From contig JAURML010000130.1 of assembly GCA_030830695.1 (NCBI GenBank), positions 1-64,000 on the forward strand: DNA of 64,000 nt, written 5' to 3'. The DNA comes from Caenibius sp. (GTDB lineage Bacteria; Pseudomonadota; Alphaproteobacteria; Sphingomonadales; Sphingomonadaceae). This document shows positions 58,597-60,758 of the stretch, piece by piece. Every line of letters begins with the position of its first letter. Within the stretch, counting starts at the first letter, position 1. Below the pieces are notes generated by a model, which was not told where the DNA came from, ran no database searches, and was given only the letters and a program-made list of their open reading frames with translations. Position numbers and translations under genes: made by a program.

Positions 58597-58704
58597 AAAC
58601 CGCAGAATTCCGGCGATTAAAATCTTTTAACTTAACCTGAGCACGCCCCCCCGGCAGCATCTCCCCGAGGCGAAATTGCCTCACCGACCAGGGGAGACCT
58701 TTCC

Positions 58705-58863
58705 ATGAAACTGCCTCAAATCGATTTGTCCCAGCTGCCTGACCTCGACACGCTGACCGGCCTGTTCGGCAGCGGCAACGCCGGCTTGCCGGGCACGGAT
58801 GACCGCATCGTCATCATGATGACCTATCTTTACGAAACCTTCCCGGTTTCGGGCCTCATCTGA
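58705..58863 (+). CDS. Small 52-residue protein, possible peptide precursor
   Basis: Short gene with a strong AGGGGAGA site 7 bases before ATG 58705 and stop TGA at 58861. The first 25 residues are Leu/Asp/Pro rich (IDLSQLPDLDTLTGLFG), then a Gly-rich hinge (GSGNAGLPG), then TDDRIVIMMTYLYETFPVSG plus two hydrophobic residues. No signal peptide and no helix long enough to be a clear membrane anchor. Leader-hinge-core layout resembles precursors of modified peptides; function unproven. It is followed after 28 bases by three unrecognised genes. Confidence 0.7.
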   Translation: MKLPQIDLSQLPDLDTLTGLFGSGNAGLPGTDDRIVIMMTYLYETFPVSGLI

Positions 58864-58891
58864 ACAGGCGCATGAGCTGAGGAGACTGGCG

Positions 58892-59323
58892 ATGCGGATT
58901 GATCCAGCGCAGTGGGCGATGCGGACCAATGACGAAGCGCAACGCCAGGCTCAGCACGCAATGGTCGAGGCAGCCGCCGCATGGCGCCAGCAATCGTGCT
59001 GGCGTGATGTCGCTGCCGGGATCAGGGTGTTCGGCGAAGGCGCAGGGCTTGCGCAATGTCCGGCGCTCGTCACCCTGTTTGCGCCAGACGGCGCAGGACA
59101 GAAGCTGGCGCGCGCCTTCGTCAAACATTTTCTTACAGTGCTGGCTCGCGAACCGCTGGCCCAGGTGCCTTCGCGCTATGCCGCCAATGGCTCGGTAATG
59201 ACGCTGATGTTGGCGGCGAGCGGACGCGCCACGCTCTCGCTGGTGCTGTTCGACGGTGCGCGGCTGGCCGACGTCCCGCTCCCCAGTCTGCCGGATTTGC
59301 CCAAGGGGAACGACGGGAACTGA
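58892..59323 (+). CDS. Unrecognised protein A of the small-peptide locus
   Basis: Protein of 143 residues, no recognised domain: RIDPAQWAMRTNDEAQRQAQHAM, then AAWRQQSCWRDVAAGIRVFG, ALVTLFAPDGAGQKLARAF and SVMTLMLAASGRATLSLVLF. Alpha-helical and beta segments alternate. Clear Shine-Dalgarno GAGGAGA. The next ATG overlaps the stop (TGATG), so products A and B are probably made together. Confidence 0.75.
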   Translation: MRIDPAQWAMRTNDEAQRQAQHAMVEAAAAWRQQSCWRDVAAGIRVFGEGAGLAQCPALVTLFAPDGAGQKLARAFVKHFLTVLAREPLAQVPSRYAANGSVMTLMLAASGRATLSLVLFDGARLADVPLPSLPDLPKGNDGN

Positions 59324-59811
59324 TGATTGCCGGTTGCGGCGAAGGGCGGCTGGTTGAACGTGTGCATTCCCATGGCCCGCTTTCGTCGCGGCTGCTGCAT
59401 TTCCAGCCGGGCCAGATACTGGACATTGACACCGCCCGGCAGGCCTTGCTGGTCGAGCGGGTGGATGGCGCGATGATGACCATGCGCCTGATGCGCACCG
59501 CGCAGGAGCCAGGGCCATCGCGCGAATATGCGTTGAGCGACGGGCGGCTGGTGCATCAATCCGCCGGGACAATCGGCGAAAGCGCTCAGGAACTGATGCT
59601 GGCCCTGCTGGGGCGAATGAAGCGCGCCGATGCCGTGCCGTTGATGGCCCGGATGAGCGGCGAGGGCGGCGAGAGCTTGCGCTGGCAGGCACTGCGCGAA
59701 TGCCTTGCACTGGATAGTGGGGCGGGGTTCCGCGCATTATGCGCGATTGCAGCAGATCCGGGCGATGTGCTGGCTGCGCCAGCCGGGGCGTTGCGCGCGC
59801 AATTGCTTTAA
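59323..59811 (+). CDS. Unrecognised protein B with a helical C-terminal half
   Basis: Protein of 162 residues. The first half is beta-rich (GPLSSRLLHFQPGQILDIDTARQALLVERVDGAMMTMRLMR), possibly a barrel. The second half is helical, HEAT-like (ESLRWQALRECLALDSGAGFRALCAIAADPGDVLAAPAG), with a pattern similar to the C-terminus of the next protein. Function unknown. ATG 59323 was chosen because it couples to the previous stop. Confidence 0.72.
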   Translation: MIAGCGEGRLVERVHSHGPLSSRLLHFQPGQILDIDTARQALLVERVDGAMMTMRLMRTAQEPGPSREYALSDGRLVHQSAGTIGESAQELMLALLGRMKRADAVPLMARMSGEGGESLRWQALRECLALDSGAGFRALCAIAADPGDVLAAPAGALRAQLL

Positions 59812-59855
59812 GCCTATCCCGTGCTTGCCGGGATGCTGGAAGTGGAGGACATGCC

Positions 59856-60758
59856 ATGCCCCGCATAATCGAAGGTGCGGACAGCGCCTGCTGCGAACTT
59901 GCCGAATGCGTTGCCGCGCTGGGCGAAACCGGGTTCGAGCCTGAGGATGAAGCCAGCCTTGCCCATGCAGCCAGCTGGCTGCGGCGGCTGGGCAACAATC
60001 GCACATTTCTGGGCGACATCATGCTGAAGCGGCTGGCGGAGCGCCATCGCGAAGACCCGGAACAGAGTGCCTATGGCCCGCAGGTCATCATGCTCTCGCG
60101 CCCGTCGGGCGACTTCTTCCTGGGCGCCAATATCTGGCCTTCGCAAGACGAGCACATGTTTCGAGCCAGCGGCGGCGGAACCTTTGTGTATGGTGTGCCG
60201 CACGATCACAATTTCGATTTTCTGACCGTCAGCTATTTCGGACCCGGCTACTGGAGCGACTATTACGAGTTCGATTACGAGCGACTGCACGGCTGGACCG
60301 GTGAGAAGGCCGAACTGCGGTTTGTGGAGCGCAGCCGCCTCGAACCCGGCAAGCTGATGCATTACCGCGCGCATCGCGACGTGCACAGCCAGCTCCCCCC
60401 CGATGCGCTGTCAGTCTCGCTTAACATCATGCACATGCGCCCCAGCCAGGCCTGGTTCGATCAATATCGGTTCGACACGGAGAAGGACGAGGTCAGCGCG
60501 ATTCTCAATCACGGGGCCAGTGAGATCTTCCTGCGGATCGCGGTCGCGCTGGGCGGAGAGGAGGCGCTGGACCTGGCTGAACGTTTCGGCGGCCATCACC
60601 CCAGCGACCGGATGCGTCTGGTTGCATGGGATGCACAGGCAGCCGCGCTTTGCGATCCGGCCGCGCGCGATGCCCTGTGGCGCCGGGCCGAAGCGTCTGG
60701 CAACCGGATGGTGGCGATGGAGGCGCGGGCGCGCCGCGCCGCCTTGCAGACCGCCTGA
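59856..60758 (+). CDS. Cupin-like protein of the small-peptide locus
   Basis: Protein of 300 residues. Central cupin-like pattern: HDH at 116-118 (YGVPHDHNFDF), acidic residues near 138 and a second His region (MHYRAHRDVHSQLPPDALSVSLN, residues 168-190), enough for an iron-type metal site. The C-terminal 90 residues are helical repeats. Non-heme oxygenase or epimerase-type chemistry is possible; no close family was recognised. ATG 59856 has GGAGG 7 bases upstream. Confidence 0.75.
   Translation: MPRIIEGADSACCELAECVAALGETGFEPEDEASLAHAASWLRRLGNNRTFLGDIMLKRLAERHREDPEQSAYGPQVIMLSRPSGDFFLGANIWPSQDEHMFRASGGGTFVYGVPHDHNFDFLTVSYFGPGYWSDYYEFDYERLHGWTGEKAELRFVERSRLEPGKLMHYRAHRDVHSQLPPDALSVSLNIMHMRPSQAWFDQYRFDTEKDEVSAILNHGASEIFLRIAVALGGEEALDLAERFGGHHPSDRMRLVAWDAQAAALCDPAARDALWRRAEASGNRMVAMEARARRAALQTA

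Follow-up and report, generated by a model that had tools for sequence, protein, structure and literature searches.

In the stretch of 64,000 nucleotides analysed here (the window), the corrected unit at the locus is, by comparison with its relatives, peptide - AB - C, and we consider it on balance probable that these three genes form an undescribed RiPP-like module, in which the putative iron enzyme C and its pseudoenzyme-like partner AB would modify the peptide. More tentatively, and with somewhat less than even confidence, we propose a new RiPP class of the Sphingomonadaceae/Erythrobacteraceae and scattered Gammaproteobacteria, where an enzyme of the thiol-dioxygenase fold and its metal-free paralogue would modify a mostly Cys-less peptide under the control of a near-private cis-element. 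A literature search, with most subscription journals outside it, returned no description of the peptide-AB-C module. In the window, lysA and a sirohaem-synthase N-terminal gene lie upstream of the locus, whose features are as follows.

58615..58634, plus strand: conserved element, putatively for control (in relatives GATTACAATCTTTTAATTTC), starting 90 bp before the peptide ATG
58705..58863, plus strand: peptide gene, 52 aa, from the profile match (E 4.8e-22 in its own genome), the alignment and pN/pS by segment; residues 1-23 are leader-like, 24-30 linker, and 31-52 hydrophobic and core-like
58892..59838, plus strand: AB, disrupted; one gene in relatives (~320 aa), from the profile match and structure
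58892..59323, plus strand: "protein A" of an earlier note on this DNA, AB from its N-terminus to the frameshift
59323..59811, plus strand: "protein B" of that note, the AB remainder between the frameshift and an in-frame TAA
59856..60758, plus strand: C, 300 aa, with a predicted thiol-dioxygenase fold (H116, H118, H177) and a C-terminal helical repeat domain

The small gene, its neighbours and its upstream element

The 52-codon ORF at 58705-58863, with the Shine-Dalgarno-like GGGGAG upstream of it, and the 28 bases that separate it from "protein A" were confirmed as originally described, and the ORF is genuine, standing far above chance and belonging to a conserved family almost confined to the position before the AB-C pair. 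A profile built from 51 peptides was searched against 299 genomes of the family, where 99 had a peptide match, 103 a C match and 96 both, with 7 having C only, 3 the peptide only and 193 neither (Fisher p 2e-65). The earlier note had asked whether the small gene sits with A, B and the cupin in relatives, and 96 of the 101 peptide matches have C 190-1387 bases downstream on the same strand, that is, at most 1.4 kb away. The outcome that the note named as refuting, a small gene lacking conservation next to conserved A, B and cupin genes, is contradicted by these counts. In the case of the C-only genomes, the locus was read in six of the seven, and all six carry a short ORF with the same layout that the profile missed; likewise, a peptide-like ORF with this layout was present at nearly all of the divergent loci read (30 listed). 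This is the arrangement expected of a RiPP locus, a short gene for a putative precursor conserved next to genes for what would be its modifying enzymes. Genomes G018, G232 and G293 have the peptide and no C match above threshold, and at their loci (L260, L258 and L259, respectively) the peptide gene is kept, while AB and C are absent or only a C fragment is left. In G286 (C30; L212, 6508-11096) there are two C copies, one after AB and a single peptide, and the other behind a tandem pair of short, peptide-like ORFs that differ from each other.

The neighbours of the module vary by lineage (cysG/ruvX, yidC/engB and others, with gene names from sequence reading), and since they differ between lineages, the peptide, AB and C keep together in different places; the module was also found on a plasmid of Alteromonas stellipolaris and, here and there, in genomes from other families. 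It could be argued that these genes are conserved neighbours co-inherited without any shared function, given that many genomes of the family retain the cysG/ruvX synteny, but such a coincidence is contradicted by the co-movement of the three genes, which occur as a set on a plasmid, in Gammaproteobacteria and in several neighbourhoods unrelated to one another, and we hold it to be very improbable indeed. Distant C homologues also adjoin restriction-modification genes on a plasmid of Vibrio sp. ED002 (L093, 6997-8417) and occur on an IMG/VR contig classed as viral (L199).

A 20-bp element upstream appears, from its distribution in these genomes, to be nearly confined to the peptide gene. GATTACAATCTTTTAATTTC is found in 64 of 66 relatives at -85 to -103 from the peptide ATG (at least 15 of 20 matches), and a search of 150 family genomes for RTTACARTNNTTTAAYTT gave 11 exact matches, all 11 just before the peptide gene, with no match of its reversed control in the same 150 genomes. 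The window copy, with the pattern at 58616-58633, has one mismatch and is the sole match with at most 3 mismatches in the 64 kb, and a dyad-like variant (TTACA-N4-TGTAA or TTAA) occurs at a similar distance in several divergent loci.

AB, one gene in relatives and broken in the window

The locus had been described as having three unrecognised proteins besides the small one, and there are actually two, AB and C, with AB broken in the window genome. Of the 60 loci from genomes and 80 public contigs, nearly all have, where A and B would lie, a single open frame of ~320 aa that usually runs into the start of C. The AB profile aligns to the window in two pieces and in different frames, 58892-59281 (profile 1-131) and 59260-59838 (profile 125-321), and the lesions are a frameshift at ~59260-59281, where the frames overlap, and an in-frame TAA at 59809-59811. 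In the alignment, conserved residues before the ATG of B (GERRELMIAG) and after its stop (AYPVLAG...PCPA) are part of the same protein, interrupted here by a frameshift and an in-frame stop; in the predicted AB structure, moreover, the A/B border would fall inside the cupin barrel and divide it. The TGATG previously noted at 59321-59325 is indeed there, whereas the two translationally coupled genes read from it were rejected, given that AB is one gene in relatives and the TGATG is a scar of the frameshift.

Since AB is disrupted in the window, the local copy is probably inactive, and the window copy of the module as a whole is probably defective. The search with the AB profile gave no second intact AB elsewhere in the window genome, and the genes flanking the module appear intact by ORF length. 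The genome is apparently a draft (200 contigs), and the AB lesions may be sequencing errors. That C is also decaying in the window was rejected, because its deviations at nearly invariant sites (R90G and G126S), 2 of 81 conserved columns, are ordinary among relatives. In the MAG of the nearest relative (G093, locus L110), C is frameshifted near residue 262, the module being either damaged or mis-sequenced there, and in G162 (L261/L262) an insertion of ~40 kb splits AB, leaving the peptide and the 5' part of AB on one side and the 3' part of AB with C on the other, where C also has one in-frame stop.

C and its metal-free paralogue

The cupin-like protein with an HxH motif and a downstream His was found as described earlier (59856-60758; H116, H118 and H177), and its generic cupin label is better replaced by that of a thiol-dioxygenase-fold protein. 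The AlphaFold models of AB and C were confident (pLDDT 92.5 and 91.2, respectively), and residues 11-219 of C match the P. aeruginosa thiol dioxygenase 4tlf (Z 13.3, rmsd 3.6, 163 aligned), with mercaptosuccinate dioxygenase 8vni also at Z 13.3 and thiol dioxygenases heading both fold-comparison lists, including that of Foldseek. In the profile comparison of C with CDO/MDO proteins, which were taken from genomes by Pfam CDO_I, HDH falls on HDH and DVH on DIH (E 2.5e-4), and in a column-shuffled control at another hhalign setting the score was at most 7.8 vs. 32.2 for the real C profile. By sequence, the relationship is remote, with a single-comparison hhalign probability of 43%. All of 31 diverse members have H116, H118 and H177, and where thiol dioxygenases carry a second-sphere SxHxY, C reads SxNxM. 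No match to Pfam CDO_I (PF05995) was obtained in the 31 C members scanned; Pfam, NCBIfam, PADLOC and PHROGs gave no domain match beyond a weak HEAT at the C-terminus of some C homologues, and a PDB sequence search gave chance-level matches only. None of the four window ORFs matches Pfam or NCBIfam, in agreement with the first reading of the locus. According to the predicted structure and the profile comparison, C would be a remote relative of the thiol dioxygenases that keeps the three metal-binding His in a predicted site. With these enzymes (CDO, 3-mercaptopropionate/mercaptosuccinate dioxygenases and ADO/PCO) it shares the fold (Z 13.3, 163 residues) and the HDH + DVH/DIH triad in register, but it differs from them in its extra C-terminal helical repeat domain, in SxNxM, in lying below Pfam detection, and in the peptide gene and pseudoenzyme-like paralogue linked to it.

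The predicted structure of AB consists of helices, a cupin barrel without the His triad, and HEAT-like helices, and it has the same kind of fold as C with a lower Z (~10) and no invariant His. Its homology to C (E 1.2e-4) covers the second barrel half and the C-terminal helices, and the helical C-terminal part that had been noticed in both B and C was thereby confirmed. The AB profile gave no significant match to thiol dioxygenases, and therefore their link to AB rests on the fold (Z ~10) together with the homology to C. AB is a paralogue of C, most likely a pseudoenzyme, with the predicted thiol dioxygenase fold and without the metal ligands.

The peptide, its proposed modification and the rival readings

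The peptides follow the pattern M-x-LPKIDLSSLPDLDTLTGVFGS, then a linker of variable length and then a hydrophobic stretch, which reads DDtiviLMvfiYE in the main clade, whose peptides have almost no Cys, and takes the form ...EVGGxxC plus hydrophobic residues in a second subfamily. The mean pN/pS of 427 pairs was 0.16 in the first 23 residues, 0.76 in the linker and 0.50 in the last part, and a constrained N-terminal half with a drifting C-terminal half would be the leader-core pattern expected of a RiPP precursor. The Cys-bearing peptides cluster on the C tree (6 changes vs. 12.7 in shuffles, with 0 of 500 as low), and the core type, with or without Cys, tracks the enzyme tree. Conserved core residues had also been suggested as a check, and none is shared by all peptide subfamilies, which leaves no one residue to point to as the site of modification; the core is wholly different between subfamilies, and C is conserved meanwhile.

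This last contrast also weakens the reading of the peptide as an unmodified small subunit or allosteric partner of an AB-C oxygenase working on a small molecule, e.g., a thiol, since the core changes completely between subfamilies and C does not. Such a partner would fit the fact that small thiols are the substrates of thiol dioxygenases, that AB and C are paralogues that could form a heterodimer, and that the module is mostly single-copy and often adjoins cysG (sirohaem synthesis) in the family, but the leader with a drifting core, the variable linker length, the two tandem peptides of G286, the exporters by distant copies, and the occurrence of the module in neighbourhoods other than that of cysG argue against it, and we regard it as unlikely, though a serious contender.

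In the case of export, the Alteromonas copy adjoins a Yip1 protein, an HlyD-type membrane fusion protein, a MacB-type ABC exporter and an ABC-2 exporter, and the copy in the gammaproteobacterium G859 adjoins FtsX/MacB-type and ABC-2 transporters and a PadR regulator. No dedicated exporter was found in the sphingomonad neighbourhoods inspected, no leader protease was noticed in the module, in either sphingomonad or exporter-linked copies, and the search for an RRE or a known maturase found none. In G859 (L200, 7742-8443), an extra, weak Cupin_2 protein is located just downstream of C on the same strand. The exporters at some loci, together with the Ile/Val-rich hydrophobic C-terminus, the GG in one subfamily, and the retention of the peptide where AB and C were lost, would also suit an unmodified membrane-active or signalling peptide (a bacteriocin or pheromone), with AB and C as accessory or immunity proteins; we find this distinctly improbable, however, given that AB and C are predicted cupins, that the His triad is invariant in C, and that the hydrophobic stretch mostly falls short of the length of a membrane span.

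A constrained leader, a core drifting with the enzyme clade, an iron-enzyme-like C with a metal-free paralogue, and exporters beside distant copies are most simply explained by a RiPP-like pathway. The early proposal of a peptide with its modifying enzyme is thus borne out as regards conservation, linkage, leader/linker/core-like selection and exporters near distant copies, and from these we infer the modification itself, along with the precursor status of the peptide, leader binding, oxidation, leader cleavage and export. The small gene would encode a precursor in which a variable linker joins the conserved leader (LPKIDLSSLPDLDTLTGVFGS) to a hydrophobic core at the C-terminus; AB, whose metal ligands have been lost, probably acts by binding the leader and presenting the core, and C, with its predicted three-His iron site, probably oxidises a core residue using O2. 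The oxidised residue could perhaps be the Cys after GG in the EVGGxxC subfamily and would have to be another one in the main DD...YE subfamily, which has no Cys. Cleavage and export of the product would follow, in sphingomonads via proteins encoded elsewhere, and in Alteromonas and G859 via the ABC exporters beside the module.

If this RiPP-like account is true, an unannotated peptide system is present in about one third of the sampled family genomes (103/299), with a small gene easily missed by standard annotation and partner proteins without a Pfam or NCBIfam name. The thiol dioxygenase fold would then enter peptide modification, including that of Cys-less substrates, and, since most of the peptides have no Cys, the chemistry would be new for this fold; AB would be a further case of a pseudoenzyme paralogue probably serving as a peptide-binding partner. 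A peptide and two proteins make a system small enough to be tested directly in E. coli.

Compared with known systems, the module differs from lasso peptide clusters in that no B protease or Asn-synthetase-like C match (Pfam/NCBIfam) was found in the four ORFs of the window, and C has another fold. Double-glycine leader bacteriocins resemble one peptide subfamily in its EVGG and Cys-containing hydrophobic core, but the main subfamily has no GG, and no C39-peptidase transporter was seen in the module. PbsQ/BpmG, a cupin-like (JmjC-type) hydroxylase of biphenomycin-type RiPPs (PMC12257519), likewise acts on a RiPP precursor, by hydroxylation there and as a proposal here, but its partners, an MNIO, an arginase and a B12-rSAM, were not seen in the peptide-AB-C module. 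In crocagin biosynthesis, CgnA is the precursor, CgnB and CgnE, derived from an aminopeptidase-like fold, are peptide binders, and CgnC is a dioxygenase that needs 2-oxoglutarate (PMC10070186). The logic of a short precursor, a non-catalytic enzyme-derived binder and an iron dioxygenase would be the same, as a likeness of layout only, whereas the binder candidate here, AB, is itself a predicted cupin and a paralogue of C, the putative iron protein, and the protein types of the two systems are, by their description, apparently unrelated.
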